A model generated the notes under the pieces. That model did no database searches. It was not told the DNA's origin and saw only the letters and a list, made by a program, of their open reading frames with translations. Positions 430 through 46,574 of a stretch of 64,000 nucleotides of DNA are shown one piece after another. The position numbers and the translations under genes were made by a program. Source of the stretch: Williamsia limnetica (GTDB taxonomy: Bacteria; Actinomycetota; Actinomycetes; Mycobacteriales; Mycobacteriaceae). Each line of letters begins with the position of its first letter. The stretch's first letter is position 1. The DNA lies in the NCBI RefSeq assembly GCF_003217475.1, contig NZ_QJSP01000011.1, positions 186,001-250,000 on the forward strand. Reading direction: 5' to 3'.

Positions 430-753
430 GTGATTTTCATCGTGGTCAAGTTCCAGGTGAAGCCCGAGTGGACCGATCGTTGGTTGGATCTCGTCGGCCC
501 GTTCACGCAGGCAACCCGCGCTGAGCCGGGCAACAAGTGGTTCGACTGGTCGCGCAGCGTCGATGATCCGAACGAGTTCGTCCTGGTCGAGGCCTTCGAA
601 GACGATGCCGCAGGGCCGCACGTCAACAGCGACCATTTCAAGAAGGCGACGCAAGAGGAGATGCCACAGGCTCTGGTGTCGACGCCGAAGATCATCAGTC
701 ACACGATCGACGCCGACGACTGGTCGGCGATGGGCGAGATCACCATCAACTGA
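430..753 (+). CDS. Antibiotic biosynthesis monooxygenase (ABM/YgiN-like) domain protein
   Basis: A 107-residue single-domain protein. The start MIFIVVKFQVKPEWTDRW, the central NSDHFKK, and the closing I-S-H-T segment fit the dimeric ferredoxin-like ABM fold found in YgiN quinol monooxygenases and related small oxygenases that work without metal or flavin. In that family the substrate is usually a quinol or polycyclic aromatic; it cannot be told from this sequence. The GTG start is chosen because GGAG lies seven bases upstream. It stands alone, convergent with the MetE-like gene, and the two share the bidirectional terminator at 782-819. Confidence 0.75.
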   Translation: MIFIVVKFQVKPEWTDRWLDLVGPFTQATRAEPGNKWFDWSRSVDDPNEFVLVEAFEDDAAGPHVNSDHFKKATQEEMPQALVSTPKIISHTIDADDWSAMGEITIN

Positions 754-834: not shown

Positions 835-3138
835 TCAGCTGGGCGGGTGGACTTCGATCCTGCGACGCTGCCGGCGCGCGGCAGCGACCATGTTGCGCAG
901 CGCCGGCTCGAGTTGCCAATAGTGCCTGGTCTTGAGGCCACCGTCGGGGTTGACCCACAACCGATCCGATCCGACCGCAGCGGCGGCGCGCTGGATGCGT
1001 TCATCGATCTCGTCGATGTCGGGAATCGCGGCGCTACGACTCTCGTACACCCCCGGCCCGACCCCACGTTTGATCGCTGTTCCTGAACTCGTTATCTGAT
1101 CGAGCACCCAGTCGATGGAGCGAGTCGCCACGATCGACGTCACATCGGAGTCGAGGGCGTCGAACGCCTCCACCACCTTCGGGATGCTCGAATACCCGAG
1201 ATGGGCGTGGATCTGGGTCTCCGTTCTCGCGACGCCGACAGCCAGCTTGAACGCGTCCACCGCCCAGTCGAGATACCCGGCGCGGCCCCGCTCGCGTAGC
1301 GGCAGCAGCTCCCGGATGGACGGCTCGTCGACCTGAATGATCTTGATGCCTGCCCTTTCCAGATCTGCGACCTCGTCGCGGACCGCCAAGGCCAGTTGTT
1401 CTGCGGTCTCGTACAGTGGCTGATCTTGTCGGACAAATGATCTCGCCAGCATCGTCACCGGGCCGGTCAGGATGCCCTTGACAGGCTTGTCGGTCAACGA
1501 CTGCGCGTAGCTGATCCACTCCACGGTCATCGGGCTCTTGCGTTTGATGTCTCCGTACAGGATCGGCGGTCGCACACAGCGGGAGCCGTACGACTGGACC
1601 CAGCCGAAACGCGTTGCGACATAACCGTCCATCAGCTCGGCGAAGTACTGGATCATGTCATTCCGCTCGACCTCACCATGAACAAGGACGTCGAGGCCGA
1701 TGTCCTCCTGAAGGTCGATCACGCGCTTGATCTCGTCGAGCAGCAGTTGCCGGTACTCGTCCCAGGTCAACCGGTCTTGACCGTACTCATACCGGGCCTG
1801 CCGAATTTCTGCCGTCTGCGGAAATGACCCCAGGGTGCACGTCGGCACCGCAGGTAATCCGAGCACCTGCTGTTGCGCCTTGCGCCGAACCTCGTACGGC
1901 GCTCGCTCACGCTGATCGGGCCGGATTGCCGAAACACGCTGGCGTACCTCGTGCTTCAACGTGAAGTGCACCGAAGTCGGACGGGCTGACCAACGCTCGG
2001 GAGCCCCGTGGGTGACGGCCTTCGCCAGCGCCACGACCTCACCGACTTTTTGCTTGGCGAACGCGAGGCGGTCAGCGACATCACCCGGAATGTCATATTC
2101 GATGAGTAGATCGACCGGCACGTGCAGCAGGCTGCACGACGTCGACACCACCACATCGGGAATCACGGATTTGATGGCGAGTAGATGGTCGAGCGTCTGG
2201 GACTTGTCGGCCTTCCATACGTTGCGTCCGTTGATGACACCGGCATACAGACGCTTTCGTTTGAGCCCCGGGACCTTCGCGAGATCTGCCGCACTGATCG
2301 GCTCGGACACCAGGTCCAGCCCGATCGCCTCGATCTGGGTTCCGGCCAGTATCGGCAGCGCCGCTCCGAGATCGCCGTACTGTCCGGTCACAAGCAGACG
2401 CGGCCGCTGACTGACGGCGGACAGCGCGTCATAGACGGTCCCGAGCAACCTGAGTTCCTCGTCGGTACGGTCGCCGGTGAATGCCGGTTCATCCAGTTGG
2501 ATGCACTTGGCACCCTGGGCGGCGAGTTCTTTGAAGAGTTGCAGGTACGCAGGGATCAACTCGTCGATCTTGTCGATCGGCGAGAAGTCCTCGGCCGCAA
2601 CGGGACCGGTTGCAGACAGCAGGAGAAGCGAGATGGGGCCGAGCACCACGGGACGCAACTCGATGCCCTGTGCCTTGGCCCTGGTGTGTTCGGCCAACAA
2701 GGATTCGGCGTGCAGGGAGAACGTGGTGTCCGAGTCGATCTCGGGCTGCCGGTAGTGATAGTTGGTTCCGAAGAACTTCACCAGCTCCAGCGGAGGGACG
2801 TCGGGATTGCCGCGGACCATCGCGAAGTAGAAGTCCAACGGGTGCAGTTCGGGTTCGAGCGCCGCGAAACGGCGTGGCACAGCCCCGAACATCAGCGCGT
2901 TGTCGAGGACGTGATCGTAGAACGAGAAGGTGTTGCCCGGCACCTGTTCGAGCCCGGTGGCTGCGAGTTCCTGCCAGGTGTCGTCTTGCAGGTGCCGCCC
3001 GACGGCGATCAGCTCGTGGACGGAACCGCCCAGATGCCAATATTTCTCGAGCGCTCGCTTGAGTTCGCGCCGAGCACCGATGCGCGGATACCCCAGAATC
3101 GAGGATCCGTATTCGATCGTCTCCCCCGGGCTGGTCAT
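835..3138 (-). CDS. metE: MetE-like cobalamin-independent methionine synthase homologue lacking three zinc ligands
   Basis: The 767-residue protein has the length and double-barrel layout of MetE, which moves a methyl group from 5-methyltetrahydrofolate polyglutamate to homocysteine. Substrate-side motifs remain: TLGSFPQT, HGEVERNDM and IQVDEPSIRE. The zinc site does not. Escherichia coli MetE uses His641, Cys643, Glu665 and Cys726. Here the equivalents read H646, G648 (in AHLGYS), V670 (in SIVATRS) and G733 (in NPDGGLKTR). The three codons (GGG at 1195-1197, GTG at 1129-1131, GGT at 940-942) are unambiguous. The frame is otherwise intact, so this is not simple decay. The ATG at 3138 lies 13 bases after the fadB2 stop, so the two are probably co-transcribed; no cobalamin riboswitch can lie between them. 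The upstream in-frame extension only shadows fadB2. Normal catalysis is doubtful. Confidence 0.85.
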   Translation of the reverse strand: MTSPGETIEYGSSILGYPRIGARRELKRALEKYWHLGGSVHELIAVGRHLQDDTWQELAATGLEQVPGNTFSFYDHVLDNALMFGAVPRRFAALEPELHPLDFYFAMVRGNPDVPPLELVKFFGTNYHYRQPEIDSDTTFSLHAESLLAEHTRAKAQGIELRPVVLGPISLLLLSATGPVAAEDFSPIDKIDELIPAYLQLFKELAAQGAKCIQLDEPAFTGDRTDEELRLLGTVYDALSAVSQRPRLLVTGQYGDLGAALPILAGTQIEAIGLDLVSEPISAADLAKVPGLKRKRLYAGVINGRNVWKADKSQTLDHLLAIKSVIPDVVVSTSCSLLHVPVDLLIEYDIPGDVADRLAFAKQKVGEVVALAKAVTHGAPERWSARPTSVHFTLKHEVRQRVSAIRPDQRERAPYEVRRKAQQQVLGLPAVPTCTLGSFPQTAEIRQARYEYGQDRLTWDEYRQLLLDEIKRVIDLQEDIGLDVLVHGEVERNDMIQYFAELMDGYVATRFGWVQSYGSRCVRPPILYGDIKRKSPMTVEWISYAQSLTDKPVKGILTGPVTMLARSFVRQDQPLYETAEQLALAVRDEVADLERAGIKIIQVDEPSIRELLPLRERGRAGYLDWAVDAFKLAVGVARTETQIHAHLGYSSIPKVVEAFDALDSDVTSIVATRSIDWVLDQITSSGTAIKRGVGPGVYESRSAAIPDIDEIDERIQRAAAAVGSDRLWVNPDGGLKTRHYWQLEPALRNMVAAARRQRRRIEVHPPS

Positions 3139-3151
3139 GTTCTCGTCCGGC

Positions 3152-4045
<894 letters not shown>

Positions 4046-4252: not shown

Positions 4253-5548
4253 TCAGTGGAATTGGCCCTCTTCGGTGGAACCGGCCAGCGAGGTGGTGCT
4301 GCTGGTCGGGTCAACCGTGGTGGCGATGTTGTCGAAGTAGCCTGCGCCGACCTCACGCTGGTGCTTGACGGCGGTGAAGCCGCGCTCGTCGGCTGCCTTG
4401 AACTCGCGGTTCTGTAGGTCGACGAATGCCGTCATCTGCTCGCGGGCGTAGCCCCAGGCAAGATCGAACATTCCGTAGTTGAGCGAGTGGAATCCGGCCA
4501 GGGTGATGAACTGGAAGGTGAATCCCATTGCGCCGAGCTCGTTCTGGAACTTGGCGATGGTGGAGTCGTCGAGGTGCTTGCTCCAGTTGAACGACGGGCT
4601 GCAGTTGTACGAGAGCAGCTGGTCGGGGAACTCGCTCTTGACGGCCTCGGCGAACTTACGAGCCAGTTCGAGGTCGGGGGTGCCGGTCTCCATCCAGATC
4701 ATGTCGGCGTACGGCGCGTAGGACTTGGCGCGAGCGATGCAGGGCTCGATGCCGTTCTTCACGTGGTAGTAGCCCTCGGCGGTGCGCTCGCCGGTGACGA
4801 ACTGCTTGTCACGGTCGTCGACGTCGGAGGTGATGAGCGTGGCGGCCTCGGCATCGGTACGGGCGATGACGACGGTCGGCACGTTGGCGACGTCGGCTGC
4901 GAGGCGAGCGGAGCTCAGGGTGCGGATGTGCTGCTGGGTGGGGATGAGCACCTTGCCACCGAGGTGGCCGCACTTCTTCTCCGAGGCGAGCTGATCTTCC
5001 CAGTGGGTGCCTGCGGCACCCGCTGCGATCATGGCCTTCTGCAGCTCGTAGACGTTGAGGGCGCCACCGAAGCCGGCTTCGCCGTCGGCCACGATCGGGA
5101 CAACCCAGTTGTCGACGGTGTTGTCGTTCTCGACTCGGGCGATCTCGTCGGCACGCAGGAGTGCGTTGTTGATGCGACGGACGACCGACGGCACCGAGTT
5201 CGCGGGGTACAGCGACTGGTCCGGGTAGGTGTGGCCCGAGAGGTTCGCATCGCCGGCGACCTGCCAGCCGGAGAGGTACACAGCCTTCAGTCCGGCGCGA
5301 ACCTGCTGCACGGCCTGGTTACCGGTGAGTGCACCGAGTGCGTTGATGTAGCTGCCGTCTCCGGCGTTGACGCCCTCCCAGAGGATTTCTGCGCCGCGGC
5401 GGGCGAGGGTCTGCTCCTCGACGACGCTGCCCTGCAGGTTCTCGACCGACTCCGCGCTGTAATCGCGGGTGATGCCCTTCCAGCGGGGGTTGGTGTCCCA
5501 ATCCTGCTGGATCTCTGCTGCGGTACGTGGTTTTCCGACGGTGCTCAT
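4253..5548 (-). CDS. aceA: Isocitrate lyase
   Basis: The enzyme splits isocitrate into glyoxylate and succinate, the first step of the glyoxylate shunt, needed on acetate, fatty acids and products of alkane oxidation. The 431-residue protein carries the signature KKCGH (about residue 193-197, with the catalytic cysteine), the metal-binding region around GEAGFGG, and [10 protein letters not shown] near residue 315. The start at [10 protein letters not shown] is chosen because GGAG sits eight bases upstream and it matches family length; a longer in-frame extension has no support. RamB, the regulator of this gene in mycobacteria and corynebacteria, is encoded 1.3 kb away, and a RamB-like site lies in the leader. 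Confidence 0.97.
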
Positions 5549-6800: not shown

Positions 6801-8210
6801 ATGTCCAAGACCTACGTCGGCGGTCGCCTCCGCCAGCTGCGCTCGGAGCGCGGTATGTCGCAGGTGGCGCTGGCCCAGTCCCTGGCGATCTCTCCGTCGT
6901 ATCTCAACCAGATCGAGCACGACGCCCGGCCGCTGTCCGTGCCGGTGCTACTCAGGATCAGCGAGGTGTTCGGTGTCGACACCTCGTTCTTCGACTCCCA
7001 GGACGATGCTCGCCTGATCGCCGAGATGCGCGAGGTGGTGATGGACGAGGACGTCGACGTCACCGCTGATCCCCAGGAGATCAGCGACCTCGTCGCCAGT
7101 CACCCCGAACTGGCGAAGGCAATGGTCAACCTGCACCGCCGGTACCGGATCGCCACGGATCAACTCGCGGCGGCGACGGACGAGCGCGGCGACGGCAGCA
7201 TGCGCGGGTCCATCTCGGCGCCGCACGAAGAGGTCCGTGACTACTTCTATCAACGACACAACTATCTCCATGAACTCGATACCGCAGCCGAAGAGCTCAC
7301 CACTCGGATGCGGATTCATTCCGGTGATGTCCGCAGCGAGATCGCCGATCGACTCCAGACCGTCCACGGAGTTCAGATCGTGCGACGAGTCGATCTGGGC
7401 GACACGGTGCTGCACCGCTTCGATCCGGAGACCCGGCGTCTGGAGATTTCCGGCCACCTCTCTCAGGGGCAGCGGGTGTTCAAACTCGCCGCCGAACTGG
7501 GTTACCTCGAATGCGGGGACCTGATGAAGCAGATGGCTGACGAGGGCAACTTCACCACCGAGGAGGCGCGCGCGCTGGCCTTGCTCGGCATGGCCAACTA
7601 CTACGCTGCCGCCGCAGTACTCCCCTACGCCCAGTTCCACGGCGCTGCAGAGGATTATCGCTACGACATCGAGCGTCTGTCCGCGTTCTACGCAGTGTCC
7701 TACGAGACCGTGTGTCACCGGCTGTCAACGCTCCAGCGGCCCAATTTGCGCGGTGTACCGTTCACATTCGTCCGGGTCGACCGGGCGGGCAACATGTCGA
7801 AACGCCAGTCCGCCACCGGTTTCCATTTCTCCAGCAGCGGCGGTACCTGCCCTCTCTGGAATGTGTACGAGACCTTCGGATCCCCCGGCAAGATCCAGAC
7901 CCAGATCGCACAGATGCCCGACGGCCGGAACTATCTGTGGGTGGCGCGGACCGTCGAGCGCCGCGCCGCGCGATATGGCCAGCCCGGTAAGACCTTCGCG
8001 ATCGGACTCGGATGCGAGCAACGCCACGCAGCACGGCTGGTCTACTCCGACGGACTCGAGATCGGACCGCAGGCGAACGTCACGCTCATCGGTGCCGGCT
8101 GCCGGGTCTGCGAACGGGTCAATTGCCCTCAGCGCGCTTTCCCTGCCCTCGGCGCCAAACTCGACATCGACGAGCACCGCAGTACGGTGTCGCCGTACCT
8201 GGTGCGGTGA
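6801..8210 (+). CDS. ramB: RamB-family regulator of acetate/glyoxylate metabolism
   Basis: A 469-residue regulator with an N-terminal Cro/XRE helix-turn-helix (residues about 8-62; GMSQVALAQSLAISPSYLNQIE), a central ImmA/IrrE-like domain without the zinc HExxH motif, and a C-terminal DUF2083-type region with a cysteine cluster (GCRVCERVNCPQRAFP) near residue 440. This is the layout of RamB (Rv0465c), which binds upstream of isocitrate lyase and other acetate genes. Its position next to aceA and fadB2 supports the call. The leader shared with the divergent lipoprotein gene is only 107 bases. Confidence 0.92.
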   Translation: MSKTYVGGRLRQLRSERGMSQVALAQSLAISPSYLNQIEHDARPLSVPVLLRISEVFGVDTSFFDSQDDARLIAEMREVVMDEDVDVTADPQEISDLVASHPELAKAMVNLHRRYRIATDQLAAATDERGDGSMRGSISAPHEEVRDYFYQRHNYLHELDTAAEELTTRMRIHSGDVRSEIADRLQTVHGVQIVRRVDLGDTVLHRFDPETRRLEISGHLSQGQRVFKLAAELGYLECGDLMKQMADEGNFTTEEARALALLGMANYYAAAAVLPYAQFHGAAEDYRYDIERLSAFYAVSYETVCHRLSTLQRPNLRGVPFTFVRVDRAGNMSKRQSATGFHFSSSGGTCPLWNVYETFGSPGKIQTQIAQMPDGRNYLWVARTVERRAARYGQPGKTFAIGLGCEQRHAARLVYSDGLEIGPQANVTLIGAGCRVCERVNCPQRAFPALGAKLDIDEHRSTVSPYLVR

Positions 8211-45172: not shown

Positions 45173-46384
45173 TCAGCGGGTGAGGTACTGCGCCACTGCC
45201 GACAGCAGCGCCTCCACATCGGCCGAACTCGACCCCAGACCGAGGCTGGCCCGCACCGCTCCGTCGCCGTGGCCGAGTCGGTCGAGCAGCGGATGAGCGC
45301 AGAACCGGCCATCCCGTACGCCGATACCGTGTTCGGTGGACAGATACCGTGCCACATCGGCCGCGCGGTGACCTTCTACGACGAAACTCACCACACCGAC
45401 GGCATCGGAGATGTCGTGGAAGATCTTCAGCACCTCCACTCCATCGATATCGGTTAGACCCCAGCGCAGTTGCTCGGTCAGGACGGCTTCATGCTGCGCG
45501 GCAGCATCTCCGAGAGATTCGATCTCTTGGCAGGCCGCCGCCAATGCGGCTGCACCGAGGACGTTGGGCGATCCACCTTCGTGGCGGGCGGGCGCGGGAG
45601 CCCACTCCGTTCGATCGACCGCGACGTTGCGGACCGCACCCCCTCCGGCCAAGTACGCCGGCGCGGCATCGAGCCAATCCCGGCGGCCGATCAGCACGCC
45701 CGCGCCGAAGGGCGCGTACACCTTGTGGCCGGAGAAGGCCAGGTAGTCGATCCCGTCGGCGGCCAGGGACACCCGCCGATGGGGAACGAGCTGAGCACCG
45801 TCGACGACGATGCGCGCGCCCCGCGAATGTGCCAGATCAGAAAGGCGGCGGATCGGCAGGATCTCCCCGGTGACGTTGGATGCACCGGTTACCGCCAACA
45901 GTGCTGCGCCCGTGCGCTGTAGCTCGATGTCCACCCGCGCGATAGTCTCGCCGATGCTGTCGGCGGCCTGGACAACGTGGGACCGCTTCCACGGCAACAG
46001 GTTGGAATGATGTTCGATGTCCAGGACCACCACCGGACCAGGCACGCAGCCGGCCAGCAGATTCAGGGAGTCGGTGGTGTTGCGGGTGAAAACCAGGCAT
46101 TGGTCGTCGGCGGCTCCGACGAACTCCGTCACGACCGCCCGAGCGTCCTCATACGCCTGTGTGGTGACCTGCGAGGCGTACCCGGCACCCCGATGGACGC
46201 TCGAATACGTCGGCAACAGCTCCTGGATCCGCGTGACGGCGCTTCGGAGAGCCGGCGCGCTGGCTGCGTAGTCGAAGTTCACGTAGCGAGTGGTCGAACC
46301 GTCGGCCAATGGCGCTTGCAGATCCGAACCCTCAACCTCTGCAACGGCTTTCGTCGAACAAGCGAATTCTGTCGTGATACTCAA
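45173..46384 (-). CDS. Class V aminotransferase (cysteine desulfurase-like) under a SAM riboswitch
   Basis: A 403-residue PLP enzyme of the class V fold. The PLP-lysine is in AFSGHKVYAPFGAG (about residue 225) and the cofactor phosphate region is TRNTTDSLNLLAG. It has NFDYAASAPAL as in SufS/CsdA-type proteins and a possible active-site loop cysteine in RDGRFCAHPLL. The TTG start at 46384 is fixed by GGAGG six bases upstream. A SAM-IV riboswitch lies 108-190 bases upstream on the same strand, so the enzyme probably works in sulfur amino acid metabolism. Options are a cysteine/methionine-linked lyase or desulfurase; the reaction is not proven. Confidence 0.88.
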   Translation of the reverse strand: MSITTEFACSTKAVAEVEGSDLQAPLADGSTTRYVNFDYAASAPALRSAVTRIQELLPTYSSVHRGAGYASQVTTQAYEDARAVVTEFVGAADDQCLVFTRNTTDSLNLLAGCVPGPVVVLDIEHHSNLLPWKRSHVVQAADSIGETIARVDIELQRTGAALLAVTGASNVTGEILPIRRLSDLAHSRGARIVVDGAQLVPHRRVSLAADGIDYLAFSGHKVYAPFGAGVLIGRRDWLDAAPAYLAGGGAVRNVAVDRTEWAPAPARHEGGSPNVLGAAALAAACQEIESLGDAAAQHEAVLTEQLRWGLTDIDGVEVLKIFHDISDAVGVVSFVVEGHRAADVARYLSTEHGIGVRDGRFCAHPLLDRLGHGDGAVRASLGLGSSSADVEALLSAVAQYLTR

Positions 46385-46491
46385 TGTCTTCCTCCGGTGT
46401 CTCATCGGACACCACCACGCACAGGGGTCGCAGAACGGAACTGCGACTGCCGGACGTGGGGGGTCCGCGCTTGCCGACTCAGGTTCGAGCC

Positions 46492-46574
46492 GGCCAGGTC
46501 ATCACCCGGAGCACCCCGCCGCGGTGGAGGGTTGCCGACCAGCAAGCCGGGGCTGTGCGCTGATACTCGTGACC
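46492..46574 (-). promoter_or_regulatory. SAM-IV riboswitch (S-adenosylmethionine sensing RNA)
   Basis: Read on the minus strand the RNA begins GGUCACGAGUAUCAGCGC and contains CAGCCCCGGCUUGCUGGUCG, GCAACCCUCC, CGCGGCGGGGUGCUCCG and GGUGAUGACC. This order of blocks, with the outer GGUCA/UGAUGACC pairing, is the SAM-IV consensus as I know it from actinobacterial met leaders. It points at the class V aminotransferase gene 108 bases downstream. A short GC-rich stretch after it may act as the expression switch. The remaining bases up to 46729 hold nothing else I can assign. Confidence 0.8.

Follow-up and report, generated by a model that had tools for sequence, protein, structure and literature searches.

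A conserved Mycobacteriales protein family passes a methionine-synthase model despite the apparent loss, judged from aligned sequences, of its catalytic metal site. The member studied here is encoded in the window (the whole 64,000-nucleotide stretch of the Williamsia limnetica genome that was analysed). Its best explanation, to which we give a probability of roughly 0.6, is a neofunctionalised zinc-independent enzyme that acts on an alpha-amino acid, is used in sulfur shortage, and is encoded behind aceA and fadB2 as the third gene of their cluster. The idea in the initial annotation that the protein may do another reaction is thereby adopted as the best reading. The genes of the cluster and its surroundings were as follows:

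835–3138, minus strand: zinc-less MetE paralogue of 767 amino acids (aa), identified from its open reading frame (ORF), model matches, and alignment to solved MetE
3152–4045, minus strand: fadB2, a 3-hydroxyacyl-CoA dehydrogenase gene and conserved partner, 13 bp ahead of the metE-like start
4253–5548, minus strand: aceA, isocitrate lyase; conserved partner
6801–8210, plus strand: divergent HTH/IrrE/ScfRs regulator, whose family was present in 30 of 41 loci

The 835–3138 ORF was unbroken from ATG to TGA. Both MetE Pfam domains were full length (PF08267, E 3e-103; PF01717, E 1.2e-122), Pfam gave no domain beyond these two barrels, and the protein could be aligned with solved MetE structures over almost its whole length. 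The initial description of a full-length MetE homologue with an intact frame was thus borne out. Identity to the zinc-type MetE of its own genus was approximately 50%. Against the strict model TIGR01371, which requires 929.95 bits, the window protein scored 873 bits and aligned stretches of three relatives scored 833, 785, and 877 bits, all below the cut-off; a zinc-type control scored 1039 bits. Against the looser NCBI model NF003556, which requires 541 bits, the window protein scored 938 bits and aligned stretches of three relatives scored 891, 858, and 954 bits, all over the cut-off. Passing NF003556 while failing TIGR01371 would explain a methionine-synthase name. A predicted structure model, built from an 18-row alignment, was poor (mean pLDDT 61).

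In MetE the zinc activates the homocysteine thiol, according to excerpts of the Thermotoga maritima structure paper (PMC539065). Alignment to the same-genus zinc-type protein and to solved MetE placed Gly648, Val670, and Gly733 of the window protein on the Cys, Glu, and Cys ligand positions, with the ligand His646 retained. Codons at the positions of the metal and catalytic sites, with residue counts from an alignment census of 116 distinct proteins, were:

1201–1203, minus strand: His646, the sole zinc ligand kept (116 of 116)
1195–1197, minus strand: Gly648, at the site of the first ligand Cys (G 53, T 45, S 6, A 6, N 3, P 2, E 1)
1129–1131, minus strand: Val670, at the site of the ligand Glu (V 112, I 4)
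940–942, minus strand: Gly733, at the site of the second ligand Cys (G 115, F 1)
1441–1443, minus strand: Arg566, replacing the pterin-stacking Trp (Trp539 of T. maritima; Arg 110, Trp 0)
1036–1038, minus strand: Arg701, replacing the proposed proton-donor His (His672 of T. maritima; Arg 115, His 1)

None of the 116 proteins had any of the Cys, Glu, and Cys ligands, and all had the His. The 77 zinc-type rows all carried the four ligands H-C-E-C, and there was no mixed pattern among the rows compared. The replacement of three ligands by Gly648, Val670, and Gly733, as first claimed, therefore held in alignments with characterised MetE and actinobacterial homologues and recurred in relatives.

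The census drew on several overlapping sets. In total, 301 genomes of the family, drawn evenly, were searched with the window protein and held many relatives, down to 59% identity among the matches listed. A set of 40 loci from 40 genomes and a further 14 loci were chosen for high similarity to the window protein and not for their neighbours; all three ligands were absent in 40 of the 40 high-similarity loci. Altogether the sets, which overlap, comprised 135 loci and 116 distinct proteins, namely the window protein and 115 relatives with 59–90% identity to it. Eight genera were represented among the best 80 of 226 relatives in a named search: Williamsia, Jongsikchunia, Gordonia, Rhodococcus, Prescottella, Nocardia, Skermania, and Antrihabitans. 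The closest named kin belonged to Williamsia. The matches inspected from elsewhere in the order and phylum, outside this family, kept the full set of four ligands. On a tree of 66 rows the 25 zinc-less rows formed one side of a single branch with a long stem (SH-aLRT 100). As placed by this tree, zinc-less MetE is one clade, a whole subfamily marked by the ligand change.

Within the genus, four of nine genomes carried the zinc-less gene and the other five had no match. These five Williamsia-genus genomes contained fadB2 and aceA, and no remnant of the gene was seen within 1.5 kb. Being absent without remnant from five of nine genomes, the gene is dispensable. One relative in the genus had a zinc-type metE split over two frames, either a real break or an assembly error, together with an intact zinc-less copy.

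The position of the gene behind aceA-fadB2, pointed out in the initial annotation, proved to be conserved. Every one of the 135 loci had fadB2 directly upstream of the metE-like gene on the same strand, and the gaps projected from aligned ends ran from -14 to 545 bp. In 131 of these loci aceA preceded fadB2, and in the remaining four the contig ended first. The divergent regulator at 6801–8210 is presumably of the RamB type. No McbR-like sites were seen in the fadB2-to-metE gaps.

In many Rhodococcus and Prescottella loci the gap that separates fadB2 from the metE-like gene contains a strong stem-loop. Of 116 gaps, the 80 of suitable length were folded with 30 shuffles each and the other 36 were left out; z was below -3 in 56 of the 80. 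The stem-loop is possibly an attenuator or an mRNA-processing element. The corresponding gap in the window is only 13 bp.

Two further features of the window were recorded. An ABM-domain protein gene at 430–753, plus strand, is convergent with the metE-like gene, and in one genome of the genus without a metE-like gene it sits directly behind fadB2. A SAM-IV riboswitch (Rfam RF00634, 108 bits) at 46462–46574, minus strand, lies just upstream of a gene for a cysteine-desulfurase-like protein at 45173–46405, minus strand, whose best NCBIfam match was SufS at a score under that model's cut-off.

Roles of the remaining active-site residues (amino-acid backbone, glutamate tail, pterin, proton donor) were taken from excerpts of the T. 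maritima MetE structure paper (PMC539065). The homocysteine-site residues Ser411, Glu462, Asp577, and Met468 of T. maritima (Ser438, Glu489, Asp604, and Met495 in the window protein) were each kept in 116 of 116 proteins. In the groove that holds the glutamate tail (Arg24, Lys27, Arg520, and Arg523 in the window protein), the residues matching Arg15, Arg493, and Arg496 of T. maritima were kept in all 116 proteins and the one matching Lys18 in 115. The pterin contact Glu583 (Glu610 in the window protein) was kept in 110. Asp670 of T. maritima was replaced by Glu in 116 of 116, Lys104 was Arg in 87 and Lys in 26, and His111 was kept in 84. The initial annotation had described the folate and homocysteine motifs as intact. 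That description stood for the residues of the amino-acid backbone and the glutamate tail, and it failed for the pterin Trp, now Arg566, and the donor His, now Arg701. We read the family, from these residues, as combining a retained amino-acid pocket with a pterin site that has eroded and a metal site that is gone.

That the zinc site disappeared along with both the pterin Trp and the acid His is an argument that the family gave up the methionine synthase reaction, and retention of the homocysteine-backbone residues is an argument that an alpha-amino acid still binds. Folate binding may also persist, and methyl transfer may remain the reaction, since Glu610 is kept in 110 of 116 proteins and the glutamate-tail residues in 115–116.

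Other methionine synthases were found alongside the zinc-less gene. The initial annotation had called for a second metE or metH to be looked for, and the W. limnetica genome contained two full-length MetH proteins, both over the metH cut-off. Beyond the zinc-less gene, PF01717 gave only one weaker match in this genome, a short MetE-like frame. Every carrier in a set of 38 chosen for showing no zinc-type MetE had MetH above the cut-off; in this set each genome had one zinc-less-type match, ligands were read in part of the genomes, one genome was 66% complete, and a zinc-type copy may be missed in some cases because at most three candidates were scored per genome. Among 30 genomes chosen mostly for having two matches, 28 had a zinc-type MetE, a count that arose partly by construction and is not a rate. 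A cobalamin riboswitch was present at six of six zinc-type metE loci tested versus none of five zinc-less loci tested, and none was found in the window. B12 should repress a zinc-type metE under riboswitch control. We infer that the zinc-less protein is not the cell's methionine synthase.

A link to sulfur shortage came from the sulfur proteome of Rhodococcus qingshengii IGTS8. In excerpts of that study (PMC8557817), a ‘MetE’ was 190–273-fold up in sulfate-starved cells and belonged to the top ten of the sulfur proteome by abundance. The homocysteine-making MetY rose together with it, and the study read the protein as methionine synthase and reported a switch from MetH to MetE. The same excerpts gave a composition of 2 Cys and 7 Met for this protein, a growth medium containing B12, and the following peg order: 5907 (MetE), 5938 (choline sulfatase), 5939 (TauD), 5940 (ROK regulator), and 5948 (MshA).

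In Rhodococcus sp. P-2, the zinc-less gene, sulfatase, TauD, ROK, and mshA occurred in that order on rough gene calls, at gene steps of 27/1/1/7 versus 31/1/1/8 for the IGTS8 pegs in the excerpts (PMC8557817). The zinc-type metE of P-2 was located approximately 650 kb from its zinc-less gene. Zinc-less copies from eight R. erythropolis-group genomes contained 2 Cys (seven genomes) or 1 Cys (one genome), and 7 Met (two genomes) or 8 Met (six genomes) with the start counted, so that the 7 Met of IGTS8 was matched exactly in two of eight. Zinc-type copies in this group had at least 4 Cys and short MetE-like ones at least 3; in the wider family 12 of 77 zinc-type proteins had 2 or 3 Cys, and the Cys argument is valid for the R. 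erythropolis group only. Because of the gene order, the composition with its Cys count, and the B12 in the medium, and not from the IGTS8 sequence itself, the IGTS8 ‘MetE’ is most likely the zinc-less protein. In R. qingshengii PM1 a ‘metE’, the copy not being specified in excerpts of the report (PMC13414329), was up under selenite.

An unlikely alternative is a metal-free, sulfur-sparing methionine synthase, in which methyl-folate would methylate homocysteine, the arginines would lower the thiol pKa, and the enzyme would replace MetH or MetE when sulfur is scarce. The invariant homocysteine-backbone residues and the nearly invariant glutamate-tail groove agree with it, as do the joint rise of MetY and the IGTS8 ‘MetE’ and the methionine synthase role assigned there (PMC8557817, excerpts). 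However, the pterin Trp was absent from 116 of 116 proteins and the acid His from 115, and every one of the 38 carriers examined had MetH. Cys content tells against sulfur sparing as well: 42 zinc-less proteins had 1–6 Cys versus 2–8 in the 77 zinc-type proteins, and beyond the two ligand Cys the family is not Cys-poor. As a driver of ligand loss, sulfur sparing was thus unsupported across the family, although the Rhodococcus copies are Cys-poor.

The initial annotation had also raised a role as a sensor. We regard as less likely still a non-catalytic protein that would bind an amino acid or folate and control or buffer sulfur or C1 metabolism. Loss of the catalytic metal site and acid with retention of the ligand-backbone residues would suit such a protein, but no positive evidence for a sensor emerged, and the two barrels are joined by no additional domain. 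In sulfate-starved cells the likely Rhodococcus orthologue ranks in the top ten of the sulfur proteome by abundance, which is easier to reconcile with an enzyme (PMC8557817, excerpts).

It is improbable that other residues, e.g., His644, His646, and His739, bind a metal and keep a metal-dependent reaction. His646 is invariant, and His739 was conserved in at least 90% of the zinc-less proteins and in 0 of 77 zinc-type rows. Against this, a search across the 116 distinct proteins for a substitute ligand Cys found no conserved one, and the Glu position was Val or Ile in all of them. The sole Cys conserved in at least 90% of the 116 was Cys212, in the N-terminal barrel. The initial annotation had named other residues supplying the ligands as what would overturn its claim; the alignment offered His739 and no replacement Cys.

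Selection on the gene was measured as dN/dS by the Nei-Gojobori method. Values for the zinc-less gene were 0.087–0.162 in Williamsia (mean 0.109, six pairs) and 0.012–0.053 in the R. erythropolis group (mean 0.035, 21 pairs). The zinc-type MetE of the same seven R. erythropolis-group genomes gave 0.049–0.072 (mean 0.061). In both the Williamsia and the R. erythropolis sets, mean dN/dS of fadB2 and of aceA was below that of the zinc-less gene. Since the same ligand changes recur in relatives under purifying selection, they are not due to chance. A decaying or non-functional copy, in keeping with the gene's absence from five of the nine genomes of the genus, was rejected as highly improbable, since the aligned frame was free of internal stops at all 135 loci and dN/dS was 0.012–0.162; the early view that the gene is not decaying was right.

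Compared with MetE (TIGR01371; PF08267 and PF01717), the zinc-less protein is alike in its two-barrel length, domains, homocysteine-backbone residues, glutamate-tail groove, and zinc His. It differs in having other residues at three of the four zinc-ligand positions and in place of the pterin Trp and the acid His, in its score under the TIGR01371 cut-off, in the lack of a cobalamin riboswitch at the loci tested, and in its place with aceA-fadB2. A changed reaction within the MetE superfamily is also found in epoxyalkane:coenzyme M transferase, although that enzyme has a single barrel and retains its zinc. MesB-like proteins of Chloroflexales and MesC of MSBL-1, in excerpts of their description (PMC7857596), likewise belong to the superfamily, have unconserved zinc ligands, and have been proposed to serve another function. 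As described there, they lack the N-terminal barrel, being core proteins, and show the patterns FSHG, YCDQ, YREQ, or Gly at the Glu site; unlike them, the zinc-less MetE is full length, has a near-fixed H-x-V-G, and occurs in several genera in a fixed gene neighbourhood. No description of a zinc-less full-length MetE or of an aceA-fadB2-metE cluster was found among the titles and abstract openings that searches of an open-licence library listed.

The preferred reading, a neofunctionalised zinc-independent enzyme, would work as follows. An alpha-amino acid would be held as MetE holds homocysteine, and the reaction would proceed independently of zinc. Arg566 and Arg701, in the places of the pterin ring and the proton donor, would perhaps grip an anionic group, a carboxylate or an oxidised sulfur, belonging either to the substrate or to some second ligand; this role for the two arginines is a guess. 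The enzyme would serve sulfur-limited or C2-type metabolism. A more far-reaching and rather unlikely reading is a zinc-free methionine synthase that is switched on when sulfur runs out, or else an enzyme of the MetE fold whose two new arginines let it accept an oxidised sulfur amino acid. If true, a zinc-free methionine synthase would overturn the rule that methyl transfer from folate to a thiol needs zinc. If the reaction is instead another one, the switch from MetH to MetE described for IGTS8 (PMC8557817, excerpts) would need rereading, and sulfur starvation would be linked to glyoxylate-shunt genes.
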